From an uncultured Saprospiraceae bacterium (GTDB lineage: Bacteria > Bacteroidota > Bacteroidia > Chitinophagales > Saprospiraceae), in NCBI GenBank assembly GCA_938045585.1, contig CALIAU010000006.1, positions 1 through 64,000 of the forward strand: a DNA stretch of 64,000 nucleotides, read 5' to 3'. Under the pieces are notes generated by a model. It searched no databases and was not told the origin of the DNA. It worked only from the letters and a program-made list of their open reading frames with translations. Positions 5,811 through 48,675 of this stretch are shown here, in pieces (position 1 is the first letter of the stretch; each line of letters begins with the position of its first letter). The position numbers and the translations under genes are program-made.

Positions 5811-8372
5811 CTACTTGGATATTATCACTTTTCCTTTTGCGAGTTTCTGATCAGAAACTATGGCATAATAATACAAGCCATTAGGAAGTCTAGAGATATC
5901 TATATTTTGTTGCTTATCTGAAGTTAATACAACCTGACCAGCAGTATTGAATAAGCTCAGATTGTAATCATCTCCAAACGTTCCATTAGATAATTCGAAG
6001 TGTAGGTAGTCGCTTGCTGGATTTGGATACGCTGTAATACCTTCTAAAGCATCGTAATCTTCTAAGCCAGAAATGATTTCACCATCTACTACCTCATTAA
6101 ATAGGATTAACTCTTGATTCTCCGCAATGTAAAATGAATTTCTGTTTTCATTTAAATCTAATGCCCAACTTAAAACTGTATTTTCTTTAGCTTCAACAGT
6201 GATTTGAAACAAAGCATCTCCAGCTTCAATTTCTTGTGCTGTTGCATCTTCTGGATTCATGAGCACAATGTTTAGCTCCCCATTTTCTGATTGATTAAAG
6301 CTCACTGAGTTCGCAAAATGTCCACTTAGAACTTCTGTAACTTCTAAAGCTGCATTATCAATAGTAAAGCTTATTTCAGCGCCATGTGCTATCATTTCTT
6401 CGCTCACAGAAAAAGGGATCTTTAAGGTTTCACCTGCATTTACTAATTGGTCTGAATACTCCAATCCATTTTCACCAGAGAAGTTATTAGCGCCTAGGAC
6501 TGCAGAGTCATTTACATCTCCTGGCTTTATCGCTATGTACTGTGCTTTAGGTGAAAGAGAGTTCTCAATTGGCTTATCAATAAAGTTCCAAGTCGAACTT
6601 AATTCAGTATCTATTCCGAGAATTACACGCTCGACCAAAACTAAATCTAGGGTAGTCAAACTATTGTTTTCATTTACATCAGCTGCAATAAGTTGTAAGT
6701 CATCCATGAAATTAATCGCTAGGATATGTTGACGCATAATGAAGAGATCTAAAATGTCTAAGCCATTTTGAGGATCATCGGCAAGAAATGGATTCAATAT
6801 ATCATTATCTTCTACTGTTGCGTTTCCGTCCTCGTCTGTAATAATGTCCTGTGTTACTTCTACGTCAGGAACAGGACGTGCTTTTATAGTTTCTACTGTA
6901 ACCAAATTACTGAATGCACCTAAGTCAACTACAATTGTTTGTGTGTATATCCAAAACAATGCGCTTCCTCCGATATCTGAACGTGTAACAGTCCACTGTC
7001 GCCCTAAGGTTAATTCATCAGGTCCTAGGTCAACGAGATAGTCAATGTATTCAGCTGAATAAGAATCAGGTGCATTATAAAAGGATGGCTCCGCATCTAA
7101 TGGATCTACTCCTGAGAATTCTATGAGCTCTTCTGGAGAAATTCTATAATCAGCTATGGCAAGATCGGCTGGCCATTCTACATCGTCTTCTAAACTATGT
7201 CCAGAATCACAATCACCTACAGGTGCTGTTCTTGGCAGCGTATCACAAATAAAATCTGTGTTCGGGGCGTTGTCAATAATTTGGAGGTAGAAAAATGTGT
7301 TGCCAGTTGTCCAATCTAAAATAGTCCAAGTTCTAGAGACCTGAAATGACGTATTACTAATAATGAAGATGTCATCACTATATGTTGTAGCAAGTACTTG
7401 TTCACAATCAAAATCGACAATCGTAGGCATAGCATCTGCAGGATCTATATCGAAAAATTCGACAAGATTTGCAGGGCTTAAGCTATCTGAGTCTGCACCC
7501 AATATTGCTAGTGTTAAGTCAGAAGGCCACTCTATTTTATCTCCTGTTAATGGGGGACAATCAACTTCTCCATCTACATTTATCGTACCCCAACAAGAAT
7601 TATTCATAGGTGTGCTCACATTCGCAGTAAGCGTAGTACCTGCATAAGCAGACCATATGATATTGTCAGGAACAATCTCACCGGAAGCATCAAGAATAGT
7701 TAGGGTATAGTTTTCATCACAGGTGCCTGGTTCCTGATTAAACAACACATCGTCTAATTCGATGAGTACTGGACCATCATCCGTATTTACAGAAATATCG
7801 GTTAAGCATGCAATGGGTGAAAGATCTTGATAAACGACTACATCTGTGAAACCTGTGTTAGTATTCCCTGACTCATCAACAACAGTCAACATGACTGTTA
7901 GATCTTCTTGACCTATGTCCTCACAAGTAAATTCAGAGGGGTCTACAGACAAAGTGATATCACCACAATTATCCCAAGAACCATTGTCAACATCTCCTGC
8001 TGTAATTGTAGCTTCACCATTTTCATCCAAAATTATTGTCAACTCTTGTTCGGTTACAGCGACTGGAGCTGTCTTATCCTCTAATAATGCTATGCTAACA
8101 CAAGTAGAAGTATCTGATCCTACAATAGCGGTGACAGTAATTTCTGTTTCTACATCAAGATCATCGTATCCGAGTTCTGTTATGTCTAATGTTACTTGGT
8201 CATATATGTCAGTAGGTCCTTCTACAAATATGTCTGGTGTTAGTTGCGCAGTACAGTCCCATATAGAAGTGCTGATATTTACCATGCCGTTACAGTTGAC
8301 CTGCGCTAATAAATGTATTTGCATAAAAATTCCTACAAAGAGGAATGCAATGTTTTTGTAAATCTTTTTCAT
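5811..8372 (-). CDS. Secreted multidomain protein with dockerin-like repeats and T9SS C-terminal sorting domain
   Basis: Signal peptide; DILDLFIMRQHILAI..LQLIAADVNENNSLTTLDLVLVERVILG; C-terminal ITAYPNPASDYLHFELSNG...LPNGLYYYAIVSDQKLAKGKVIISK. Confidence 0.85.
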   Translation of the reverse strand: MKKIYKNIAFLFVGIFMQIHLLAQVNCNGMVNISTSIWDCTAQLTPDIFVEGPTDIYDQVTLDITELGYDDLDVETEITVTAIVGSDTSTCVSIALLEDKTAPVAVTEQELTIILDENGEATITAGDVDNGSWDNCGDITLSVDPSEFTCEDIGQEDLTVMLTVVDESGNTNTGFTDVVVYQDLSPIACLTDISVNTDDGPVLIELDDVLFNQEPGTCDENYTLTILDASGEIVPDNIIWSAYAGTTLTANVSTPMNNSCWGTINVDGEVDCPPLTGDKIEWPSDLTLAILGADSDSLSPANLVEFFDIDPADAMPTIVDFDCEQVLATTYSDDIFIISNTSFQVSRTWTILDWTTGNTFFYLQIIDNAPNTDFICDTLPRTAPVGDCDSGHSLEDDVEWPADLAIADYRISPEELIEFSGVDPLDAEPSFYNAPDSYSAEYIDYLVDLGPDELTLGRQWTVTRSDIGGSALFWIYTQTIVVDLGAFSNLVTVETIKARPVPDVEVTQDIITDEDGNATVEDNDILNPFLADDPQNGLDILDLFIMRQHILAINFMDDLQLIAADVNENNSLTTLDLVLVERVILGIDTELSSTWNFIDKPIENSLSPKAQYIAIKPGDVNDSAVLGANNFSGENGLEYSDQLVNAGETLKIPFSVSEEMIAHGAEISFTIDNAALEVTEVLSGHFANSVSFNQSENGELNIVLMNPEDATAQEIEAGDALFQITVEAKENTVLSWALDLNENRNSFYIAENQELILFNEVVDGEIISGLEDYDALEGITAYPNPASDYLHFELSNGTFGDDYNLSLFNTAGQVVLTSDKQQNIDISRLPNGLYYYAIVSDQKLAKGKVIISK

Positions 8373-8412: not shown

Positions 8413-9825
8413 TTAGTTGCCAAATAGATATCTGAAGCTAGCATTCAGACCTATTTGATGATTTCTACTTGAATATATGTGTGTTGTCTGAGTAATTGAA
8501 TTTGTATTATATCTTAAGTAAGGATATATGCTAAACTGTATATGCTTGATTTGGTAGCCTAGTGAAAGCCCACCCTGAATACCTAAGCCATGTCTGTTTA
8601 CGTAAGGATGCGTGTCCTCTTTTTCAAATTTAGTGAAGCTTAGATTTTCATCGAAGTAGTATCCAGAATGACTTGCCCAGATGTTATACATAAGCCCCAT
8701 TGTGCTTCCAATGCTAAACCTGTCTAATTGATACAAACGTTTACCAATGTGTAAGCTGAGGTCTACCTGCTTATGGCGTCTATGCCAAAGGAAATTAGTT
8801 GAACTTGTGTTCGTCTTTGTAAGACTCCCAGGAACTAGGGTTTGACTGCCATCAGGGTTTATTATAATGCTTTCTGTTCCTGGAATTTCTGTCTCAGTTA
8901 TTTCTACAGAGTTGGAGCTGAGAGAACTATAATAAGAACTATAATTTAATCCAGTTGAAATGGACCATCCAGTTCTATGAAGGAATCCTAGTTCGAAAGC
9001 AGTGTTAAATCCTATTTTGTCTTTCTCACTATTCAAGACTGCATCATCTAAAATTTCGGTACCATTGTTTAAGGTATTCGAACTTAAATTATGGTTGATG
9101 CCACTAGAGATTTGAATAAAACTTACCCAGTTTTTAGGTTTTGTAGGTAGTATGGTAGTGGGGGTAGGTTTATCGTTTTTAATTATGCTTAGAGAGCCTA
9201 GTAAAGTAGGGAGCATGGAAAGCTTTTTTAAACTTAACTGCTGATGTGTTCCTTCTCCATTTTTCTCGTTATTTGTTTTTAAGTTTTGTGTGTTTTCCTT
9301 TAGCTCTTTCGTTTCATTTTTTTCTTTGCCAGTTTGTGTAATTGCTCTATGGAAAGCTTTTGGAATTGAATTTTCATTCGTCAGATTCATGGCCGCAGCC
9401 TGTGTTAGAGCACTCGTGTAATTGTTGGGGTTGAATGAGTTGTTAAGGCTAGTTTCTGGCTTTCTTACACTTTGAGCACTTTTTATGTCAGATTCATTTA
9501 TAGCTGCTGTATGATTACTATTCGCGTTTGAGAAGATATTTTTTGTCTCATCATTCTCATTAATAACTTCTTGATCCACTGTCGCTGCGCTAGGAATAAT
9601 AGCTGTATTGAGTGATTTCTTGCTCATAAAGCTTCCAAGAAAGAAACCAGCTAAGAGTACTGCCGAGAAGAAAAATACAAATGGGAGCCAGCCCCTTCTT
9701 TTCTTTTTTTGTTCCGGCAATTGTTCTGAAATATCCGACCATAGTGCTTCTGTGTTTAGATCAAAGTCTAAATTTTCCGCTAGGTGCTTGAATTGCTTTT
9801 CTTTGTTATTTAAATCGTTTGACAT
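8413..9825 (-). CDS. Candidate anti-sigma-like membrane protein with C-terminal outer-membrane beta-barrel domain
   Basis: KKKRRGW + single TM near residues 45-66, N/K/E-rich linker, amphipathic beta-strand repeats to terminal RYLFGN; directly downstream of ECF sigma gene. Confidence 0.7.
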   Translation of the reverse strand: MSNDLNNKEKQFKHLAENLDFDLNTEALWSDISEQLPEQKKKRRGWLPFVFFFSAVLLAGFFLGSFMSKKSLNTAIIPSAATVDQEVINENDETKNIFSNANSNHTAAINESDIKSAQSVRKPETSLNNSFNPNNYTSALTQAAAMNLTNENSIPKAFHRAITQTGKEKNETKELKENTQNLKTNNEKNGEGTHQQLSLKKLSMLPTLLGSLSIIKNDKPTPTTILPTKPKNWVSFIQISSGINHNLSSNTLNNGTEILDDAVLNSEKDKIGFNTAFELGFLHRTGWSISTGLNYSSYYSSLSSNSVEITETEIPGTESIIINPDGSQTLVPGSLTKTNTSSTNFLWHRRHKQVDLSLHIGKRLYQLDRFSIGSTMGLMYNIWASHSGYYFDENLSFTKFEKEDTHPYVNRHGLGIQGGLSLGYQIKHIQFSIYPYLRYNTNSITQTTHIYSSRNHQIGLNASFRYLFGN

Positions 9826-9842: not shown

Positions 9843-10427
9843 TTAATTAAACCCTAATGAGAGTTTGTTATTAATCGCTTCCTTTTTTTTATTGTGTATT
9901 ACACGTAATCTATCTTCTTCAAATTTGTCGTTTATCATTTTTCGGCCTCGCGAGACTAAGGCGCGAGAGGTACCTTCTTTTATATTTAAAACATACCCTA
10001 TCTCTTTGTGACTGTAGCCCTCTATTAAAAACATGTTTAAGGCAATTCTATACTTAGGCGCTAAGTCATTCATAAAACGTAACACATCTTGACTCTCTAA
10101 AGCATATTCTGCTTCAGCCGTTTTTGAGGGTTCATATGTTTCTTCAATATTAAATACCATGTGTTTTTTTTCATTTCGTATAGACTGCAGGCATTTATAT
10201 ACTGTTATGCGTGCTATCCAAGCTTTAAATTTCCCCTGCTCTTCGTAATCTTTTATATGCATGAGGATGTGTAACATGGCCTCCTGCAAACAATCCTTCG
10301 ATTTTGTTTCTGTATTAATATATCTTCTGCATACTGCAAATAAGTACTTAGAGTATTGCTCGACAAAAGCTTTCTGTGCTTTTCTATCGTTTATCTTACA
10401 GCCTTCTATGATTTCTCGTTCCTGCAC
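9843..10427 (-). CDS. ECF-type RNA polymerase sigma-70 factor
   Basis: Region 2 (DCLQEAMLHILMHIKDYEEQGKFKAWIARIT) and region 4 (GYSHKEIGYVLNIKEGTSRALVSRGRK). Confidence 0.93.
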   Translation of the reverse strand: MQEREIIEGCKINDRKAQKAFVEQYSKYLFAVCRRYINTETKSKDCLQEAMLHILMHIKDYEEQGKFKAWIARITVYKCLQSIRNEKKHMVFNIEETYEPSKTAEAEYALESQDVLRFMNDLAPKYRIALNMFLIEGYSHKEIGYVLNIKEGTSRALVSRGRKMINDKFEEDRLRVIHNKKKEAINNKLSLGFN

Positions 10428-10435
10428 CTATTTGT

Positions 10436-12121
10436 TTAATTTGCCTTGCATAGGATAATTCCCTCAATGGGAAAGTTCCCTGCAGCCGCTGGAGTAATCG
10501 TTTGCATCCAGGCTTCGCCTGAAAAAGTTATTCTAATCCAGCCATCATTAGTTTCTTCGTAATGACTTACAAATGCTTCTTCTATACCACAACCCTGTGT
10601 TGAATTCTCACAATTAATGGCATATCCATTTGCTCCAAAATTTAAATCGTCAATCTTTATATTTAATTCTTCTACATTATATGGTCCTATATCCGTGCCC
10701 TTTACAATTAGTTTCAACGCATCATCTTGGGCAGTTAAGAAAGTCTTACCATCTTCTTTGTCAAAGCTAAATGCCTTATAGAGTTTCTTATCATTCCGAA
10801 TTTTTATGAAACTATATCCGTCTTCATGTTCCTGACAATTACTCAGGTAGCTTAGCTCTGCTGCAATTTCAGTAGTCCAAGAAAATGAAGGACCTGAAGT
10901 ACCATCTTTAATATTATAGGCAGACACTTCAAATGCATTGTTGCAGATGCTTAACCAAGTGTCTATTTGAGTATCATTAAATGGGTAAATAAAATTGCCA
11001 TTGTTTACAAAGATGCTTATAGCTGGTTCAGAACTAAGCTCACCATCGCATTGTAATACAGACGTATTTAAATTATAAAAAGCATTGTCCGTATTTTGAA
11101 TAGTGAAACTTAAGTCATTGACATGATCTTCTGTACTTGCATAATTCAAGGTTCTTAATTCTTTATTACAAGGATCTAATACCTTATAGTCAAGATCACT
11201 CATTGCAGGTACAACGGAGAAAAATTTTCCACCTAAGCTCGTGTACGTTGTAGTCGTATAATCCGAACTATTCCAGGCATGTTTCTGATAGGAGAGTGGT
11301 GCGCTCTCTAAGAATAATTCGCCTTCTGTAAAAATTCCATCTTGATATTCTGCAAGCATGTAATATCCACTGTGCATCAAAGAAACTTGCCCATTAATCA
11401 AGTCATCAATAAAAAGCCAGGCACTTCTATCTGGATCAAATTGAAATAATCCCAGTCTATTTGTATTGTTCCCTTCAAAGCGCAGGAATGCAGGTTCATC
11501 CTCTGCAATTTCCAAAACATTTCCTGCATTGTCGTCTAAGGCAAAATAAAATCTATCGATTGGCTGTAAAGCAAGTAAGTCATTGTTTATATATCCAAAT
11601 TCTCCAAGCTGTTTATCATATTTTCCTTCGCTTAAGTCTCTTATAGATAAATTAGCTGAGCCACTGTGTGATACTCCTGAACTGTTGTTAATTTGTTTGA
11701 ATTCAATCGAACTAAAACTTGTCAGACTTAATGCATTGTCTAATATGAGGTCTTTAGATTGTAGCTCAGGAAATAAGTGCAAATCCAGCAGATTAATGTC
11801 ATTTTCGATTAGAAGTAGGGAAGCAAATGCTTTAAACAATCCATCTTGTTCTATACTGAGATACTGGCCTCGTTTATTCACAAGCTCAACCTGCTCTAAA
11901 AAGTATGATTTTAGCTGGGTTTTTAAATTACCACCCATAATCAGTGAGTAGTCATTTACTAAATTTCCATCTGCGTCATTGACCTTTCCTGTTATCTCAG
12001 TAGTAATAATAATTTGAGGCTCCTCTGTGCTATTCGAATTATCTATTACTTCTTCAAAGTCTGCGTGACAGGCTACCAGTGAGAAAAGACAAAAAAGGAA
12101 TATGATATTTTTAAAATTCAT
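10436..12121 (-). CDS. Large lipoprotein of unknown function (ORF open to 12220; start set at MNFKNIIFLFCLFSLVAC)
   Basis: Lipobox LFSLVAC; ITGKVNDADGNLVNDYSL carboxypeptidase-regulatory-like N-terminus; 8 bp before the sigma start. Confidence 0.7.
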   Translation of the reverse strand: MNFKNIIFLFCLFSLVACHADFEEVIDNSNSTEEPQIIITTEITGKVNDADGNLVNDYSLIMGGNLKTQLKSYFLEQVELVNKRGQYLSIEQDGLFKAFASLLLIENDINLLDLHLFPELQSKDLILDNALSLTSFSSIEFKQINNSSGVSHSGSANLSIRDLSEGKYDKQLGEFGYINNDLLALQPIDRFYFALDDNAGNVLEIAEDEPAFLRFEGNNTNRLGLFQFDPDRSAWLFIDDLINGQVSLMHSGYYMLAEYQDGIFTEGELFLESAPLSYQKHAWNSSDYTTTTYTSLGGKFFSVVPAMSDLDYKVLDPCNKELRTLNYASTEDHVNDLSFTIQNTDNAFYNLNTSVLQCDGELSSEPAISIFVNNGNFIYPFNDTQIDTWLSICNNAFEVSAYNIKDGTSGPSFSWTTEIAAELSYLSNCQEHEDGYSFIKIRNDKKLYKAFSFDKEDGKTFLTAQDDALKLIVKGTDIGPYNVEELNIKIDDLNFGANGYAINCENSTQGCGIEEAFVSHYEETNDGWIRITFSGEAWMQTITPAAAGNFPIEGIILCKAN

Positions 12122-12351
12122 GCTTGTTATCCGTTTACTATACATCACCAGTTTGTTGCAATACGTTGCAGAGGACAATGATTTTTTTTGAGATGTTAGG
12201 TCTGTTTTTGCCATTTTCAAAACAACATCTGTTCCTAAATGTTTGATTGTAAATACCTTGCGTAGGTTGTATGAAGCTATTGATTAGATAGAATTACAGT
12301 TACTCAATAAATCTACAGATAATTATAATGTATTTAAGGTTAAAAGTGGAG

Positions 12352-13137
12352 CTATGCCGGTAGTACGATATCTAATGACTTATCTAAAATCCTACACGCA
12401 TCTTCATAACCGTAGACATATTTATTTTCAAAGCTAGGTTTTTCAAATGCTAAAGGGGAGCCAAGGAGGCGATGGGATGCAATAATCACTTTTTTCTTGC
12501 TTTTAATATTCACCACACGTTGTTTGGGTAAATATTTCTTGACATAGGCTATGCGTGCAATAAATGTGTAGTCAAAGCATTTATTTTCTAGATAGCTAAA
12601 TTCTGGTTCGTTGTCAGCAAAGCCGCCATCTAGATATTTCTTTTGGTTAATTATACGATCCTTAAAAAATGGTAGTCGCGCACTAGCTAAGATATGTGCT
12701 ACTAATTGCCCTTCTGGAATCTGATCCAAGGAAGGATACTCCAATTGTTGATCAGAAATATTATACAGTGCAATGACCAGTTCTACAGATTTACTGCGAA
12801 TCAAAGCTTCATCTAAATAACTATGCAATATGTTTTCTAATGGGCTAGGATCTATGCCACCAGTTATAAACTCTTTAAGAAGGCCTAGGGTATAGGTTCT
12901 TGTATTTTGTTTTACATTCTTAAAGAGTTCCTTCTTAGTAAACTCTAACCATATTTCTTTTGCTTCTAAGGGAGTATACTGTAATAGGAGACAGGCATTT
13001 AAAGCACCTATGGAACAAGCAGAAATAGATAGGGTATTTTCAAGAAATCCTGCCTGCCGCAAGGCTTCTGCTACCCCAATTTGGTACATCCCACGTGTTC
13101 CACCTCCTGTTAAAATTAATTTAGTTCGAATCGACAT
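12352..13137 (-). CDS. Patatin-like phospholipase
   Basis: GGGTRGMYQIGVAEAL oxyanion motif, SACSIGALNACLL nucleophile elbow (GxSxG-like, here ACSIG), DGGFADNEP (DGG). Confidence 0.88.
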   Translation of the reverse strand: MSIRTKLILTGGGTRGMYQIGVAEALRQAGFLENTLSISACSIGALNACLLLQYTPLEAKEIWLEFTKKELFKNVKQNTRTYTLGLLKEFITGGIDPSPLENILHSYLDEALIRSKSVELVIALYNISDQQLEYPSLDQIPEGQLVAHILASARLPFFKDRIINQKKYLDGGFADNEPEFSYLENKCFDYTFIARIAYVKKYLPKQRVVNIKSKKKVIIASHRLLGSPLAFEKPSFENKYVYGYEDACRILDKSLDIVLPA

Positions 13138-13326
13138 ATCTATGCTAGAAACGTTTTTATCCTTGAAAAAGCACTCAAATAGCCGGATTTAATTAGAATT
13201 ACATGGAATAGGTTCGAAAAAGGCCTAAAAACTAAAAATTTCATCGCGTTCAGGCATCAAAATCTTTATTTTAAGAATATATAGAATCAAGTGGGCAATA
13301 TAAACTGTTTACACAATTGTAATAAA

Positions 13327-14376
13327 ATGAAAAATTTGTTTCGATTTAAATATATAATGACTTTAGTATTAGGCATTGCCTTGCTTAGTTCTTGCCAAAG
13401 AGATAATCTGGATGAAGCGATTGCAGGCATTGATCCAAATGTTGATGATAATCAGTTTGAGCTTGTTGATGTAACAGGACAGCTAGAGATTAATAATAAT
13501 GGAATTGTAAGCAAGTTTTATGCTTACATTACAAGCTGTACAGTGGAAGATTTTTATTTACACACCCTCGTGTTTGCAGATGATTTTAGATTTGAGAATA
13601 ATTTAGTAGTACCCTCAGGCACTCGCAGTCAATTGTATTGGACGAGTTTTGATAGCCTACAAGCTGGTACATTTCAGGCCTATAGCGGATTTATGGGTTC
13701 TACCGGCAATGAGTCAAAAGAACATTTTGTAATTGAAATAAGCCAAATAGAAGGTGTGGGAGTAGTCGATTCAGAGCAAACTAAGTTTACAGGTATATTT
13801 TATCCGAATCCAGTATACAATCCATTGACATCATTTAATACCAGTTATGAGTTTTCTGATCTGTCCAAGGTGGCGTGTGAATTTGATGATATAGAGCCAA
13901 GTATTTTGGTCTTACCAGATGGCGAGATGACTGATTGGGCGATAGGAAGATCTCAGTTTTTTGTTGATGGTGATACAATTATGTATTCCTCTGTAATGCA
14001 ATATTGTGATACTGAAGAAACTTCCATAGAACCATTGGAGGCATTTTTACATATTGGACATGGAGTGACAAACTATAATGAAGGACCAATTTCCTTAGCT
14101 ATAGGCGGAGAATTTCTGATATACTTTAGAGTAACTGAAATTCCTAAAGCAAACGACGTTATTGAGGCGAGTCTTTTTCCAGTCAATGAGGAATTATTTC
14201 TAAACTACAACAGCAACTATCTACAAGAAAATGGGATTGCTATAGATCTAAATGTGTCGCTATCAGATGAGGAACGATTCGTAGCTAATTTCTCAGTTAA
14301 TGAAGACTCTTCAGGTAGCAGCGATTTTTCAAATATTATGGTAACGATAAATACAAGAATTCAAACTTGTAATTAA
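13327..14376 (+). CDS. Lipoprotein of unknown function (ORF opens at 13291)
   Basis: MKNLFRFKYIMTLVLGIALLSSCQRDN signal peptide/lipobox; 11 bp before sigma gene. Confidence 0.7.
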   Translation: MKNLFRFKYIMTLVLGIALLSSCQRDNLDEAIAGIDPNVDDNQFELVDVTGQLEINNNGIVSKFYAYITSCTVEDFYLHTLVFADDFRFENNLVVPSGTRSQLYWTSFDSLQAGTFQAYSGFMGSTGNESKEHFVIEISQIEGVGVVDSEQTKFTGIFYPNPVYNPLTSFNTSYEFSDLSKVACEFDDIEPSILVLPDGEMTDWAIGRSQFFVDGDTIMYSSVMQYCDTEETSIEPLEAFLHIGHGVTNYNEGPISLAIGGEFLIYFRVTEIPKANDVIEASLFPVNEELFLNYNSNYLQENGIAIDLNVSLSDEERFVANFSVNEDSSGSSDFSNIMVTINTRIQTCN

Positions 14377-14387
14377 GAGAAGCATAC

Positions 14388-14930
14388 ATGAACCAACTCA
14401 AAATTATACATGGTTGTATGAATAAGGACAGAAAGTGTCAGCACCTTTTGTATGCGCAGTATGCAGGATGGGCAGCCACGATATGTAGAAGATATGTATA
14501 TGATAGAGAAAAGGCACAAGAGGCTATGCAAGATGGTTTTTTGCGTGTGCTGAATAATATAGAGCAGTTCGATATGGAGAAGGGAAGCTTAAAGCAATGG
14601 ATGGCAAGAATATTTATTAATTGCTCATTGAAAATTACAAAGAAAGAGGCGTTTAATAATTCATTTAGCTCTTTAGATGATATGGATAGAGATCCTAAGG
14701 ATCCAGATGAATTTTATAACATGGATGCAGAAGGTATACTACATTTTTTGAGAGGAATGCCTACCGGATATAAAACTGTGTTCAATATGTCTGTAATAGA
14801 TGGTTATTCACATAAAGAGATAGCGAAAACACTTAATATTTCTGAAATCACTTCACGTTCACAATTATTTAAGGCCAAGAATTGGCTAAAGAAAAATGTG
14901 GACGTCAAAGAAATTCAATCAAGAATGTAA
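14388..14930 (+). CDS. ECF-type RNA polymerase sigma-70 factor (paralogue of 9843-10427)
   Basis: ICRRYVYDREKAQEAMQDGFLRVLNNI and YKTVFNMSVIDGYSHKEIAKTLNISEITSRSQLFKAK. Confidence 0.93.
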   Translation: MNQLKIIHGCMNKDRKCQHLLYAQYAGWAATICRRYVYDREKAQEAMQDGFLRVLNNIEQFDMEKGSLKQWMARIFINCSLKITKKEAFNNSFSSLDDMDRDPKDPDEFYNMDAEGILHFLRGMPTGYKTVFNMSVIDGYSHKEIAKTLNISEITSRSQLFKAKNWLKKNVDVKEIQSRM

Positions 14931-14931
14931 C

Positions 14932-16413
14932 ATGGGAAAAAGAGAAGATTATATAAAAGACACCCTCCTAGGTTATGAAACTCCAGTAGATATTCCATCT
15001 ACTTGGAACGACCTGGAAAAATTATTAGATAAACCTAATAAAAAGAAAAGGCCGTTTTGGTTCTACTTAATCGGAGCACTGAGCCTTGCAGGTATTGCAC
15101 TCTCTATTTACTGGGTGAATATGGAACAATCTCCCATTGCAGTGATTGCTGAAGCAGTAACAGAGGAAGTGGCAGTGAACAAAGTGGAGATACAAGAAGC
15201 AATGAATGCGGAGGTGCTGACAACTTCTGTAGATTTGAACAAATCAAAGGAAGTAACAGGAATTAGTTTGGGCCAAGAAACAGCAGAAGTTTTACTTAAG
15301 AATACTATAGAAGAAGAAACGAAGGCGAGTCAGAGTTTACAGGAACAAAAGTATTTGACATCCAGTCAAATGAAGGTAGCTAAGACCATTAAGCCTATTA
15401 GCAAGGGTGGATTAAATAATGCAAATACCTTACAGATTAATCCAACCATAGAAACCAGAAAGAAATCTGATGTTTTGTCAAATGGTAATATAAAAAAGCA
15501 AGAGACTCCGGCTAGCTCATCTGTACATCTTATTTCAAAATTACAACTACTTCCTAGAGTAATATCTCGACTTAAGAGTTTAAATGTATTCGACACTAAA
15601 AATCAAAGGTCTCCTAATATAGCTGCATTGCATATGCCTTTAGAAGAATCAGTTGTTCCGCTTAGATCAAGTTCAGGACTACTACTAACAGTAGAGGGAG
15701 GTCTGACAAAGCATAGTCTGCTATTTGGAGAAGAAGAATTGACGGATAGCCAGAGTGTTTTGGCTGATGTTAGATTGTCTAATAATAAAACCCTAGGAGA
15801 AGAGGCAGAATTAGAATTTATTGCTGGTTATAATCTTGGAATGGCATTGTCCTATTCACTTAAAAATGGAATTACGTTTGGAACGGGATTACATTATAAT
15901 TCCTTTCATTCAAAATTGGTAGGAGAGTATAATCAAACGGAAGATCTTTTAGATACCATTCCTACTATTGTTTTTAATAATTCAGAAGGCTTATCTGTGG
16001 CAGACTTTAGTGTCACAGAATCTATTGCAAGAAGTCCTAGATCACTTACACATTATAATAAAATCAACACACTGCATGTACCGCTTAATGTGGGATATAA
16101 TTTTAGACGTAAGGGCTTTCAATTGATAAGTACTCTTGGGATAGGAATAAATATGATAGCAAGCGCGCAGGGTAGATATTTTATAAATGCAAATTCAGTT
16201 GCTGATATTTCTAACGAACAACCCTATAAGCAAAATGCACTGCTCTATTCTATGCAGGCAGAATTAGGAATACACAAACGTCTATCTAATGATTTTAATA
16301 TATATGCGGGAGTGAAAGCTGGAAAGTATTTAAGTGATATTGGAACGGAAGCGTTTTCAAATTCTAATCTTAAATATGCATCACTGAACCTTGGAATAAG
16401 CCATAATTTTTAG
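14932..16413 (+). CDS. Candidate anti-sigma-like membrane protein with C-terminal beta-barrel (paralogue of 8413-9825; ORF opens at 14896)
   Basis: KKKRPFW + TM, long linker, barrel-like strands ending NLGISHNF. Confidence 0.7.
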   Translation: MGKREDYIKDTLLGYETPVDIPSTWNDLEKLLDKPNKKKRPFWFYLIGALSLAGIALSIYWVNMEQSPIAVIAEAVTEEVAVNKVEIQEAMNAEVLTTSVDLNKSKEVTGISLGQETAEVLLKNTIEEETKASQSLQEQKYLTSSQMKVAKTIKPISKGGLNNANTLQINPTIETRKKSDVLSNGNIKKQETPASSSVHLISKLQLLPRVISRLKSLNVFDTKNQRSPNIAALHMPLEESVVPLRSSSGLLLTVEGGLTKHSLLFGEEELTDSQSVLADVRLSNNKTLGEEAELEFIAGYNLGMALSYSLKNGITFGTGLHYNSFHSKLVGEYNQTEDLLDTIPTIVFNNSEGLSVADFSVTESIARSPRSLTHYNKINTLHVPLNVGYNFRRKGFQLISTLGIGINMIASAQGRYFINANSVADISNEQPYKQNALLYSMQAELGIHKRLSNDFNIYAGVKAGKYLSDIGTEAFSNSNLKYASLNLGISHNF

Positions 16414-16441: not shown

Positions 16442-17683
16442 ATGAAATATGTAAACTTTTTTCTCTGTATCATTTTAGCGCTTTTTTTAGCGAGCTGTGG
16501 AACTGATACAATTAGTGAATCAGATGAAGATCGAAACTTATTGGATTCTAGTATCTCATTTGATGGCAGCGGAATAGCTGGCGGAGGAGCTGGTGGATCA
16601 GGAAGTAGTGGATCAAGCAGCGGAGAGAGTACAAGCGAATCAGACCCTGGTGGTCAGCAAGGGGGAGAATCTGGATTGATTACTGCTGGAGAGTGGAATG
16701 ATTTAGAAAATTGGGATTATTGGAAAGAACTAAATGAAAGGGAAGAATTCTCGGACAAAGCAGCCTATTGGGAATTCTACACAAACAATCGTATCTCCGT
16801 AGAACTGAGATATAATGGAAGTCCGGTGGTGGATGCAGCACTTGCATTGGAAAGAAATGGTTTTACACATTGGGAAACAAGAACAGACAATGCTGGTAAA
16901 GCAGAGTTGTGGATTGGTCTATATGAATACACCGACAATGTTGATCTCTCTCAATATTCTTTATCTGTGAATGGAATAGAAACTGATGCAAACTTAACAT
17001 TTTTCGAGCAGGGAGTGAATGTTATTAATATTGATCAAACTATAAATCGAACGGATGTAGTAGAATTAGCATTTATAGTAGATGCTACAGGCTCGATGTC
17101 AGATGAGTTAGAATTTCTAAAATCAGATCTTACGGATGTTATACAAAAAGTAGAAGATGAGAATTCAAATTTAGAAATTTCTACCGCAAGTGTGTTTTAT
17201 AGAGATCAAGGGGATGAATACCTAGTGCGACAGTCAGATTTTACTTCTAGTTTAACAGCCACGCAATTGTTTATAGAGACGCAAGTTGCAGGAGGAGGAG
17301 GTGACTTTCCAGAAGCTGTACATACAGGCTTAGAAACAGCTATCAGTAACTTAGCTTGGTCCGAATTTGCTAAAACGCGTATTGCATTTTTGTTACTTGA
17401 TGCACCTCCCCATCACCAAGCAAATGTTATTGGAAACTTACAAGGATCTATTGCTGAAGCTGCCAAAAAGGGAATTAAAGTAATTCCTATAACTGCGAGC
17501 GGAATTGATAAACAAACTGAATTCTTAATGCGATTCTTTTCTATTAGTACAAATAGTACCTATACATTTATAACGAATCATAGTGGGATCGGAAACGACC
17601 ATATCGAACCTAGCATAGGTGAATTCGATGTAGAATTTTTAAATGAATTAATGGTAAGGCTTATAAAAGAATATTCTGAATAA
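16442..17683 (+). CDS. VWA-domain lipoprotein
   Basis: LFLASCG lipobox; Gly/Ser-rich linker; VELAFIVDATGSMSDELEFLKSDL MIDAS-like motif. Confidence 0.88.
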   Translation: MKYVNFFLCIILALFLASCGTDTISESDEDRNLLDSSISFDGSGIAGGGAGGSGSSGSSSGESTSESDPGGQQGGESGLITAGEWNDLENWDYWKELNEREEFSDKAAYWEFYTNNRISVELRYNGSPVVDAALALERNGFTHWETRTDNAGKAELWIGLYEYTDNVDLSQYSLSVNGIETDANLTFFEQGVNVINIDQTINRTDVVELAFIVDATGSMSDELEFLKSDLTDVIQKVEDENSNLEISTASVFYRDQGDEYLVRQSDFTSSLTATQLFIETQVAGGGGDFPEAVHTGLETAISNLAWSEFAKTRIAFLLLDAPPHHQANVIGNLQGSIAEAAKKGIKVIPITASGIDKQTEFLMRFFSISTNSTYTFITNHSGIGNDHIEPSIGEFDVEFLNELMVRLIKEYSE

Positions 17684-44226: not shown

Positions 44227-47200
44227 TTATTCCTTATTGAGGATAATTTTTTTAGTGCTTACTTCTCTCGACTCTGTGTCTATTAATCGAATAAAGTACA
44301 CACCATCTTGCAGTTCTGATATGGAAATTTCTCTTTTGCTATCAGAATTTGCAGTAAATGTCTTAACAAGTTTACCAGCGGTATTATATATTTCAGCGTT
44401 GATATCAAAGCGTTCTTTAGCACTAATATTAATCGCTCCAACAGAAGGGTTAGGGTAGATGTCAAATTTATTACTAACATTCGAAACCAATTCAATTGGA
44501 CTATTCTCAGATCTAGACTCTATATGATCATCTCCTATGATGAGAGAGCCTCCTGTAATACTCAAGCAATAATCTTCAATTTCACCACTACCTTCACTAT
44601 CACAAGCAGATGTGGCATAACTGCCCAAATGCATTACTAAACGCATCGTTACATCTCCGTTCCATATATTGTAAGGGAGTGAGAGAGTCCCTGCGATGTT
44701 GCCAATAGCAGCACCATAGGCAACAAATTCTCCACTATCGATAAAGTCTCCATCCATATTATAATCAATATACACATGCCAGAATGCATTAAGATTACCC
44801 AATGAATATTGTGGGCTTAACCTAAGATCATAAGAACCACCTGCTTCGACTGGGATACAGGTATTTGTAAAGTCCGCATAACCACCATTGTTGCCAGAAG
44901 TATTTGTATACGTGTCAATCATAACTTCGTTTATCCAACCTTGCTGTGATTCCAAACCTAGTGGGTCACAAATACTTTCTTCTACTGTTACTTTAAAAGA
45001 ACAGCTTGCAGTATTCCCACAACAATCATATGCAGTGTATGCAACAGTGGTAGTTCCGTTAGGGAAGTATGAACCATTTGCAGGTCCTGCAGTTTGATTA
45101 ATCGAGTTACAACTAGGAATTTCCATGATGTACTCGAGAGCCTTGTAATAATATTGATCATTCCATTGACCATTACTTAATAACTCTACATAATCTTGGT
45201 TTCCATTAAAGTTATTTGGTTGACCTGGATACCAGTTAGTGTAATTCAATGGTTCTCCACAAGAAGCCCAAGTAAACTGACCCTCATCCCAAGCATCATT
45301 TAAGCCTATATAGGCAGCTGATATTGGTAGTTGATTAGCCAGATATGCATTTTCTGATGGACTATCGATACAGGCTAGATAACCACCATTTGCAGAACAT
45401 ACACTTTGTGCTGATTCCCATGTATCTGGTTCTAATGAACAATAGTAACTCGATCCATTATAACTTCCCATGTAAATAAATCCTGGTATATAAGATCCAC
45501 CGCCGTTAGAACTACAGCAAGAATTTAATTCAGGATCTTGCCATGACACATTCATGCCTGAACCACCATTATCATTCGATACCGTTATATCACTAGGACA
45601 CCATAACTCTACAGCACCTTCTACTGTAAGTTTGAAGTTACAAGTCGCTGTGTTGCCACAGGCATCCGTAGCTTGATATCCAATCCAATGGACGCCTTCA
45701 GGAAGGCTGCTGTTTAAGTCTGGTCCTGAAGTTTGATTTATTGTCAAACAAGGAAGTTCCATGATGAATTCTAGCTTTTTAGAAGCATATTGATCATTCC
45801 ACTGTCCATTGTTTAACATCTCTACATGATCTTGTTGATCAAGATAGTCATTCGGTTGACCCGGGTACCAGTTTGTGTAACCCATTGGTTCTCCTGAGCT
45901 CCAAGTAAAATTACCCTCTTGACTTGCATCGCTTAGACCAATATAGGCAGACTGTAAGGTTAATATATTTGCAAGAAATGCATTTTCACCTGCACTTCCT
46001 ATACTGGCTAAATATCCCCCGTTTGCAGAACAAACATTACTAGCAGTTGACCATGTTGCAGGACTTGTTGAACAATAATAGCTAGATCCATTATAACTTC
46101 CCATGTAAATAAAACCTGGAATATATCCAGCACTATTACAAGATGGACAGTCAGACCAATACGTTGGCTCTAATGGAAGACTGCTAATATCATCATTACA
46201 ACTAACTGTAAGGTCTGGTGGACAAGTAATTTCTAAATTACCACTCGCTTCCACAACAACACTAAACCAGCAAGTACTCGCATTTCCACAGGCATCATAA
46301 GCTGTATAAATCACTTCTGTAGTTCCAACTGGGAATGTAGAACCAGAAGTATAATTTGAACTTACATGGTCAATTCCACACTCATCTGTTGCTATAGGCT
46401 CTATCCAAGTTGCAATGTTCCCGGATGTAACCCAAATGTCATCAGGGCAATCCCAAAATACAGGAGCTGTACTGTCTTTTAAATCAATTATCTGATCACA
46501 TGTAGAGCTTAAACTTGCATCAGAAGGATCTGTGGCTTTCCATGTTCTTTTTATTTTTTTCTGTCCGAAGCAAGGACCAGAACTTATTATTGCGTCTGAA
46601 AATGTAATTATTGGCTCTCCACATCCATCGTCACTTGAGCCAGAGGCATAGCCCATATTACTTGGTCCGGTTGGTGTACCAGGGCAGCTTACAATATTGG
46701 ATGGGCAGTAGATGTCGGGAGGAGAAGTACAACAATTGTCCGTCACGTTTACGGTAAACGAACAAGTACTTTCATTTCCACAAGCATCAGTAGCTGTATA
46801 TGTCACTACAGTTTCTCCCGCAGGAAACATATCTCCGCTTGCATGCGTAGATGTTAGACTCGTTAACTCACAGTTATCAGTCACGACAGGAGCGGACCAT
46901 GTGGCTGGCATTTCACATTCGCCATCCTGACTTATGTATATGTCAGATGGGCAACTACCAAATACAGGACCTAGTACGTCTCTTACATTAATTATCTGAT
47001 CGCAAGTGGATACAAGCGATGGGTTTTCTGAATCAGTAGCAGTCCATACTCTCTTTATTTTTATCTCACCATCACATGGACCAGTAGAAAGAATAGTGTC
47101 TTCATAACTTACTATGGGGGCACCACAACTTGCACTTCCTGGTTCTGCAGTTGCTTCACCTGTATCTGTAGTCATTTGTCCTCCTGTAAAATCACATTCG

Positions 47201-48675
47201 TCAGAAAGTAAACTACATCCAATAGGTTCGTACGCATCGCCATTTGCATCAACAAATCCTATGAATTCACCCGTATTGCAATCTTCTTGTGCAAAGAATA
47301 AATTGCTAGTAGGGTTGTCCAGTAGATAACTATCTAAGTCATTACAACCAATTGCCTCAATATCTTCAAGTAATTGATTTACACCAGTGGACAAGTTGAT
47401 TGTATATAAACCCGTTGAACTACAATAGTAACCAATCTCTTCACAGTCTTCAATCGCTAATCCTTGCGCAACTCCTGCCAATGGAGCAATAGTTTCTAGA
47501 ATATTTCCATTAATATCAAATCGGATAAGCTCATTGGTTCCACTAATCCAAATCTGATTCATACCTAAGAAAATGATATCTCTTGCAAGAGATATATCAG
47601 CATTAAACAAGAGAGTGGCATTTCCAGTAGCTGCATCAATTTCAAACACATTATTATCATTGGACACAGCGTATACATCTCCAAGTGGGGTTACATCTAA
47701 TCCTATTATTGTTGAAGAAGTATTTGTAGGACCAATTAATGTAAATGTTTCAGCGGCAAAATCTCCTACGTAATAATTTTTATTTGTACCTACAAAATAG
47801 AACTCATCTTTGTCTAATGGGTTTACAGCAATTGTATAGGTATTCGGAAGGGTAGGAAAGACTTTTGATACCATCATTCCTGTCGCTATATCATATTGGA
47901 ATATAGTTTTTGATGCTTGGCTAATACCTATTAAACCACTGATAATATTGTCCTCATAGCATGTGCCACAAGATTCTGATATATACTCTGAGGGACATAT
48001 ATCAAAGTTCGGCGGACAAGTTAATACTGGAGGCTCGGTACAACATTCGCCAGTTACAGTTACATCAAATGAGCAACTATTCACATTGCCACAGGCGTCC
48101 GTAACTGTAAAGGTTACAGTGGTAGTTCCTTCTGGGAATTCGTCACCACTGGAGTAGTTTGAGGTCATGCTGGCTACTTCACAGTTATCTGCAGGAACGG
48201 GGTCTACCCATTCTACAATAGCACTGCAGTCTTCACTAAGATCCACAACGATGTCTTCTGGACATTCCCATACGCTAGGCACCTCCACATCTTCAAGTAG
48301 GATAATTTGGGTACACTCAGCAAATAGCCAAGGGTTTGAGTTGTTTGGGTATTCGGCAAACCAAATACGCTTAATCAATGTCTGGCCTGTACATGGACCC
48401 TCTGACATCAGAAGGTCGGTATAGGTAACAACTGGATCTTCGCAGTCACTGTCTCCCGCAACAGCAGTTGCATATCCGGTATGATCTGGATTTGTATTGT
48501 CTCCAGGACATCCAAAATAATTTGAAGGACAGGTAATTACTGGGGAAGTATTACACTCAACACAAGCATCTTTGTCTACATTCGCAGAGATGTTTGGAAT
48601 AGAGAGTAACAGAAATAATAATGTGGCTATAACAAGGTTTGGATACTTTGCTTGACCTAAAGTTAGTTTATTCAT
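44227..48675 (-). CDS. Giant T9SS-secreted protein: HYR-type modules, two C-type-lectin-like domains, GEVED-like domain
   Basis: Repeated VTYTATDACGNESTCSFTVNV; two copies of PGFIYMGSYNGSSYYCS...GQPN...GQWNDQY; C-terminal FDIYPNPSVGAINISAKE...LQDGVYFIRLIDTESREVSTKKIILNKE. Confidence 0.88.
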   Translation of the reverse strand: MNKLTLGQAKYPNLVIATLLFLLLSIPNISANVDKDACVECNTSPVITCPSNYFGCPGDNTNPDHTGYATAVAGDSDCEDPVVTYTDLLMSEGPCTGQTLIKRIWFAEYPNNSNPWLFAECTQIILLEDVEVPSVWECPEDIVVDLSEDCSAIVEWVDPVPADNCEVASMTSNYSSGDEFPEGTTTVTFTVTDACGNVNSCSFDVTVTGECCTEPPVLTCPPNFDICPSEYISESCGTCYEDNIISGLIGISQASKTIFQYDIATGMMVSKVFPTLPNTYTIAVNPLDKDEFYFVGTNKNYYVGDFAAETFTLIGPTNTSSTIIGLDVTPLGDVYAVSNDNNVFEIDAATGNATLLFNADISLARDIIFLGMNQIWISGTNELIRFDINGNILETIAPLAGVAQGLAIEDCEEIGYYCSSTGLYTINLSTGVNQLLEDIEAIGCNDLDSYLLDNPTSNLFFAQEDCNTGEFIGFVDANGDAYEPIGCSLLSDECDFTGGQMTTDTGEATAEPGSASCGAPIVSYEDTILSTGPCDGEIKIKRVWTATDSENPSLVSTCDQIINVRDVLGPVFGSCPSDIYISQDGECEMPATWSAPVVTDNCELTSLTSTHASGDMFPAGETVVTYTATDACGNESTCSFTVNVTDNCCTSPPDIYCPSNIVSCPGTPTGPSNMGYASGSSDDGCGEPIITFSDAIISSGPCFGQKKIKRTWKATDPSDASLSSTCDQIIDLKDSTAPVFWDCPDDIWVTSGNIATWIEPIATDECGIDHVSSNYTSGSTFPVGTTEVIYTAYDACGNASTCWFSVVVEASGNLEITCPPDLTVSCNDDISSLPLEPTYWSDCPSCNSAGYIPGFIYMGSYNGSSYYCSTSPATWSTASNVCSANGGYLASIGSAGENAFLANILTLQSAYIGLSDASQEGNFTWSSGEPMGYTNWYPGQPNDYLDQQDHVEMLNNGQWNDQYASKKLEFIMELPCLTINQTSGPDLNSSLPEGVHWIGYQATDACGNTATCNFKLTVEGAVELWCPSDITVSNDNGGSGMNVSWQDPELNSCCSSNGGGSYIPGFIYMGSYNGSSYYCSLEPDTWESAQSVCSANGGYLACIDSPSENAYLANQLPISAAYIGLNDAWDEGQFTWASCGEPLNYTNWYPGQPNNFNGNQDYVELLSNGQWNDQYYYKALEYIMEIPSCNSINQTAGPANGSYFPNGTTTVAYTAYDCCGNTASCSFKVTVEESICDPLGLESQQGWINEVMIDTYTNTSGNNGGYADFTNTCIPVEAGGSYDLRLSPQYSLGNLNAFWHVYIDYNMDGDFIDSGEFVAYGAAIGNIAGTLSLPYNIWNGDVTMRLVMHLGSYATSACDSEGSGEIEDYCLSITGGSLIIGDDHIESRSENSPIELVSNVSNKFDIYPNPSVGAINISAKERFDINAEIYNTAGKLVKTFTANSDSKREISISELQDGVYFIRLIDTESREVSTKKIILNKE

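Follow-up and report, generated by a model that had tools for sequence, protein, structure and literature searches.

A probable Reo/Dma-type anti-sigma factor with a predicted outer-membrane barrel, its 15 ECF-linked copies in one Saprospiraceae genome and its lipoprotein cassette

An anti-sigma factor of P. vulgatus was predicted to cross the periplasm and to end in an outer-membrane barrel at its C-terminus, and its loss activates the adjacent sigma factor (Evans 2022, PMC9308784). BcpT induces the P. vulgatus regulon, and cell envelope stress was the proposed signal (PMC9308784). In a 2026 P. vulgatus study, Reo was presented as reaching across all five compartments and as a likely sensor of outer-membrane stress, and the regulon of the Reo-linked sigma factor included NigD surface lipoproteins (PMC13114119). 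The Dma proteins are laid out as an N-terminal sigma-binding domain, a transmembrane (TM) helix, a long disordered tether and a C-terminal barrel (Pardue 2026, PMC13088901). The dma deletion phenotype needs the sigma factor, and the anti-sigma loss de-represses it (PMC13088901).

Here, we analysed a DNA stretch of 64,000 nucleotides from an uncultured Saprospiraceae bacterium, called the window below. The open reading frame 8413-9825 on its minus strand is uninterrupted from ATG to stop and encodes a product of 470 aa (P0001). By every feature examined, the protein is very probably of the Reo/Dma kind, being likened by the described layout and not by sequence. The left-hand locus reads as follows.

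5811-8372 (-): secreted protein with cohesin-/dockerin-like stretches and a type IX secretion (T9SS) C-terminal tail (Pfam, orthologs)
8413-9825 (-): probable Reo/Dma-type trans-envelope anti-sigma factor, 470 aa (ORF, AlphaFold2 model, PDB fold search, family survey)
8425-9141 (-): its predicted C-terminal 8-stranded outer-membrane barrel, aa 229-467 (AlphaFold2, Foldseek, paralog profile match of 98.2%)
9142-9627 (-): its predicted disordered periplasmic tether, aa 67-228 (pLDDT <50 over 60-228; 15-19% identity to orthologs)
9628-9690 (-): its predicted inner-membrane helix, aa 46-66, N-in by the positive-inside rule (hydrophobicity, AlphaFold2)
9691-9825 (-): its N-terminal domain, aa 1-45, predicted cytoplasmic and proposed as the sigma-binding segment (conservation, AlphaFold2)
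9843-10427 (-): ECF sigma factor, 194 aa, GTG start (PF04542 6.7e-13, PF08281 2.7e-11)
10436-12121 (-): cassette lipoprotein, 561 aa from the ATG at 12121, lipobox LVAC (all-beta AlphaFold2 model)
12161-12170 (-): candidate ECF-type -35 box TGCAACGTAT, 40-49 bp upstream of the lipoprotein ATG, with a putative promoter function

An earlier note on this DNA had picked out EALWSDISEQLPEQ, KKKRRGW, an N/K/E/T-rich stretch and a terminal RYLFGN, and every one of them is found in the 470-aa frame. It had also called one strong TM preceded by KKKRR, and residues 49-67 (Kyte-Doolittle mean of 2.24) are indeed the sole hydrophobic stretch above the threshold. Five K/R lie among the 13 residues leading up to the helix start and two among the 12 that follow it, so the positive-inside rule places the N-terminus inside. 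The N-terminal domain of 45 residues carries the conserved E9/K13/T25/W29 and ends on its C-side with KKKRR. AlphaFold2, run on an alignment of only 6 sequences (P0001 plus five Saprospiraceae relatives), gave helices at 4-17, 25-34 and 47-65, a pLDDT below 50 over residues 60-228 and long beta strands over 233-467 with a block pLDDT of ~60-94. The whole-chain mean pLDDT is 58.9 because the tether is disordered.

The strands counted with their turns are eight, with short turns at 284-286, 368-369 and 427-428 on one face and long loops on the opposite one. This modelled topology would be normal for a barrel with both ends in the periplasm, as in OmpA. The top Foldseek matches in the PDB are outer-membrane barrels, namely porins, OmpT, OmpA, NspA, OmpX, OmpW, FadL and autotransporter barrels. 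Normalised by target, the TM-score is highest for the 8-stranded OmpA (0.73-0.74) and NspA (0.73). Between the barrel of 8-10 strands that the earlier note expected and the soluble beta fold that it feared, the AlphaFold2 and Foldseek results point to the former, an 8-stranded OmpA-like outer-membrane barrel. The single chain that the note described, crossing from cytoplasm to outer membrane by way of the inner membrane and the periplasm, is supported as an architecture, by prediction.

Identity to the orthologs of four Saprospiraceae genomes is 33-57% in the N-terminus, 24-51% in the barrel and 15-19% in the tether. The layout is beyond chance, with the N-terminus and the barrel conserved, the tether free and the whole recurring in the genome. 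Pfam and NCBIfam gave no real match for the protein. Weak matches to SLC52, DUF3050 and MakE were confined to the low-complexity region of the TM and tether and were rejected. A PDB sequence search with the ortholog profile likewise returned weak matches, the best being ESKIMO 1 (E 0.0015), which we read as low-complexity chance.

Could the helix be the export signal, cleaved or not, of an ordinary outer-membrane barrel, with the ECF gene beside it only incidentally? PF13568-type barrels are widespread in Bacteroidota and the paralogs match PF13568 or PF13505; at E 0.01, PF13568 is found in 7 and PF13505 in 8 of 19 family members. However, the helix comes after 45 residues that include conserved positions, KK follows it and the ECF linkage is near universal, making the export signal highly improbable. 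A cleaved signal peptide, the other worry of the earlier note, is unlikely at the level of prediction because the 45 residues before the helix are predicted to form two helices and carry a conserved T-x3-W motif, neither of which such a peptide should have or keep.

Computation shows, for 8413-9825, the gene order and the layout, the predicted fold, the conservation, the linkage to an ECF gene and a common promoter-like box. Reo (regulator of EcfO; B. fragilis, P. vulgatus) similarly has an adjacent ECF gene and one chain from the cytoplasm to an outer-membrane barrel. The sigma output in the Reo system includes surface lipoproteins (PMC9308784, PMC13114119) and is to this extent comparable with the present cassette, although those lipoproteins are NigD whereas the cassette lipoprotein matched no NigD model in Pfam. 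Dma1/Dma2 with Das1/Das2 of B. thetaiotaomicron share the four-part layout and the adjacent ECF sigma factor (PMC13088901). B. thetaiotaomicron has three Dma proteins and the present genome 15 such proteins. The Das sigma factors are ECF21, whereas ECF 9843-10427 gave only general ECF matches in NCBIfam and is compared by these, not by group. The dma2 operon partner is BT_1557 of unknown function, whereas the partners here are a lipoprotein and a T9SS-secreted protein.

Two more distant systems each share one aspect. In FecI/FecR/FecA, an outer-membrane signal reaches an ECF sigma factor via an inner-membrane anti-sigma factor, as proposed for 8413-9825. There, the 22-stranded TonB-dependent receptor FecA and the anti-sigma FecR are separate proteins, whereas here one chain ends in an 8-stranded barrel, and Pfam gave neither a FecR nor a TonB-receptor match for it. 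OmpA has the same 8-stranded barrel fold (TM-score of 0.73-0.74 by target length) but its N-terminus does not reach the inner membrane and cytoplasm as that of 8413-9825 is predicted to do. Pfam matched no C-terminal OmpA peptidoglycan-binding domain in the present protein, whose C-terminal part is the barrel.

That the chain could inform sigma of the outer-membrane state is a plausible suggestion, though no longer a new one, because it is the published model for Reo and Dma. The sensor kind is hence already described from gut Bacteroides, and added here are its spread in Saprospiraceae, its copy number, a conserved lipoprotein cassette and a candidate promoter box. A little-studied sensor type, known from Reo and the three Dma proteins of B. 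thetaiotaomicron, is thereby placed in environmental Bacteroidota with 15 copies in a genome. Moreover, the lipoprotein partner and the candidate box make the sensing input and the switched genes of such proteins testable.

In all likelihood, one chain reaching from the cytoplasm to the outer-membrane barrel holds the ECF sigma factor until the outer membrane is disturbed. We infer where in the membranes it sits, that it binds sigma, how it lets go, what the signal is and that the cassette is autoregulated. The ~45 N-terminal residues would bind, in the cytoplasm, the sigma factor encoded just upstream, the one helix would anchor the protein in the inner membrane and the disordered tether of ~160 residues would cross the periplasm. 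The OmpA-like barrel would be inserted via the usual barrel-assembly route with its loops outside the outer membrane. As long as the barrel is properly assembled and unligated, residues 1-45 would keep hold of the sigma factor. A perturbation of the barrel by a ligand, outer-membrane stress or failed assembly would inactivate the anti-sigma factor, most likely by proteolysis in the tether or the membrane segment, and the freed sigma factor would transcribe its own cassette including the upstream lipoprotein.

A disordered chain of ~160 residues has a contour length of ~58 nm, exceeding the usual periplasm width. With such slack, a small barrel movement alone would not shift the N-terminus, so proteolysis or failed assembly is favoured as the release. 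In an alternative scheme, the barrel of the trans-envelope anti-sigma factor would be just an anchor and mechanical reference, and the tether would sense the periplasmic width or the peptidoglycan state as an entropic spring. All 15 paralogs have a tether long enough for the periplasm (~115-215 aa), and a worm-like-chain estimate for 162 residues yields ~4-12 pN at a span of 18-28 nm, the persistence lengths and spans being assumed. However, the better conservation of the barrel than of the tether (24-51% versus 15-19%) marks the barrel as the specific part, and the tether length varies widely among the paralogs. We regard the spring as quite improbable.

The genome has 40 Sigma70_r2 matches, and reading, in fetched stretches, the gene downstream of each found the layout of 8413-9825 behind 15 of them. 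The 15 proteins are 435-522 aa long and overlap or almost touch their ECF genes, and two of these ECF/anti-sigma pairs lie inside the window. In the whole genome, a family profile gave 15 full-length matches, all ECF-linked, and no further full-length copy; built from ECF-linked members, it therefore shows that unlinked copies are absent and is not an independent discovery. By hhalign, the P0001 orthologs matched the pooled paralogs at 98.2% over the barrel and 98.3% over the N-terminus, as against <4% for unrelated window proteins, while some single paralogs taken alone match the orthologs weakly. The neighbouring ECF is presumably the cognate sigma factor of each anti-sigma factor. A mirror-tree comparison of ECF and N-terminal-domain distances over 14 own-genome pairs correlated weakly (r = 0.21, p = 0.10) and was therefore left out of the support.

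In other Bacteroidota genomes, 18 matching loci (L087-L106) were collected, one of them spurious (L098) and two genes doubly represented (L087/L100, L090/L101). An ECF gene comes directly before the matching gene in 16 of the 17 credible loci, L095 being the exception. In several of these proteins the C-terminal part is shorter, and they may be anti-sigma factors of the ordinary sort that share the N-terminal domain. Elsewhere, short ECF partners at L062 (G000 C20:14470-14880) and L042, of 174 and 119 aa, have the N-terminal motif and a TM without a barrel, so the sigma-binding segment seems joined to other C-terminal parts as well. In the family member at L041:4473-5888 (+), the TM at 94-112 is preceded by two W-x-x-L-like segments, as if the sigma-binding segment were doubled.

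The left-hand cassette is ordered as lipoprotein, ECF, anti-sigma factor and T9SS-secreted cohesin/dockerin protein. The lipoprotein gene stops 8 bp before the ECF gene, and the adjacency of ECF and anti-sigma genes reported earlier is borne out by a gap of 17 bp between the ECF stop and the anti-sigma ATG. The secreted protein gene follows 40 bp after the anti-sigma stop as the conserved fourth gene. The orthologs of 8413-9825 come from named Saprospiraceae, and the four-gene order is repeated at their loci L079, L081, L082 and L083 in several genera. The contig-end locus L080 retains the last two genes, and the fourth-gene proteins of the ortholog loci are all homologous. A fold search with the lipoprotein model returned weak multi-domain pilin/adhesin-like matches at low TM-scores, from which no identity was drawn.

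Homologous lipoproteins stand directly upstream of the ECF in 5 of the 15 pairs. The lipoprotein family is found in 27 of the 41 Saprospiraceae genomes searched. The residues after its lipobox cysteine are often QKDN, RKDD or QRDN, which we take to resemble the Bacteroidetes lipoprotein export signal. A surface location of the cassette lipoproteins is a guess since it leans on this resemblance in sequence, and the left-hand one (C-HADFEE) is a poorer fit.

The lipoprotein might act as a co-sensor by binding the barrel or threading through it, as RcsF does with OmpA in enterobacteria, its presence or loss being the signal. The family profile finds exactly five members in the genome, each directly upstream of an ECF/anti-sigma pair. 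Among 30 lipoprotein loci, which include two of the present genome and two of the ortholog set, 19 are immediately followed by an ECF, and all 17 of these with enough sequence have a Reo/Dma-type N-terminus next after it. However, the other 11 have no ECF within the fetched flank and several carry the promoter-like box, so a regulon product fits better than a partner; also, the lipoproteins of Reo, NigD, are regulon products (PMC13114119). The co-sensor is thus possible but doubtful.

A broader and unlikely proposal is that Saprospiraceae multiplied a three-part surface-sensing cassette of lipoprotein, ECF and barrel anti-sigma factor that evolves as a unit, with the lipoprotein as the ligand or assembly reporter of the barrel. 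If true, a single genome, with ~15 insulated pairs in each cell, would be able to read out many different outer-membrane conditions.

Of the 36 cassette-type lipoprotein genes, 12 have the pattern TGYARCGWWT in the 150 bp before them, whereas 300 simulated sets gave 0.10 on average and 2 at most. It was formed on the orthologs of the window and widened after three paralogs had been seen, which leaves seven fully independent cases (L120, L122, L127, L130, L132, L135 and L140). Four of the seven (L120, L132, L135 and L140) have no ECF in the fetched flank, which at L132 is 349 bp only. A box at lipoprotein genes without an ECF fits the lipoproteins as members of the regulon.

The earlier note had labelled 8413-9825 as the left copy, rightly, as a second pair lies on the plus strand.

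13324-14376 (+): lipoprotein (LSSC-QRDNLDE) upstream of the right-hand ECF, with a putative start codon in an ORF that opens at 13291
14388-14930 (+): right-hand ECF sigma factor (PF08281 5e-13, PF04542 1.7e-12)
14932-16413 (+): right-hand Reo/Dma-type barrel protein (PF13568 4.5e-5, sub-threshold; N-terminus and TM; family profile E 6e-108, the protein itself being among the profile's members)

The start at 14932 is the first in-frame ATG past the ECF coding end. The right-hand lipoprotein has no sequence relation to the left-hand one. In a sister genome, the orthologs of both pairs are on one contig and divergent as in the window.

Between the two divergent pairs lies a patatin-like gene at 12352-13137 (-), with GGGTRG and GxSxG-like motifs seen by eye, and the same set including this gene occurs in the sister species (L079:1387-2193). 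A von Willebrand A-domain lipoprotein (PF25106, 2.1e-9) is encoded at 16442-17683 (+), 28 bp past the right-hand anti-sigma gene, and may be an output of the right-hand pair. Further along, 44227-48675 (-) encodes a secreted protein of 1482 aa with repeated CPSN/CPED-type segments and, by eye, two C-type-lectin-like stretches.
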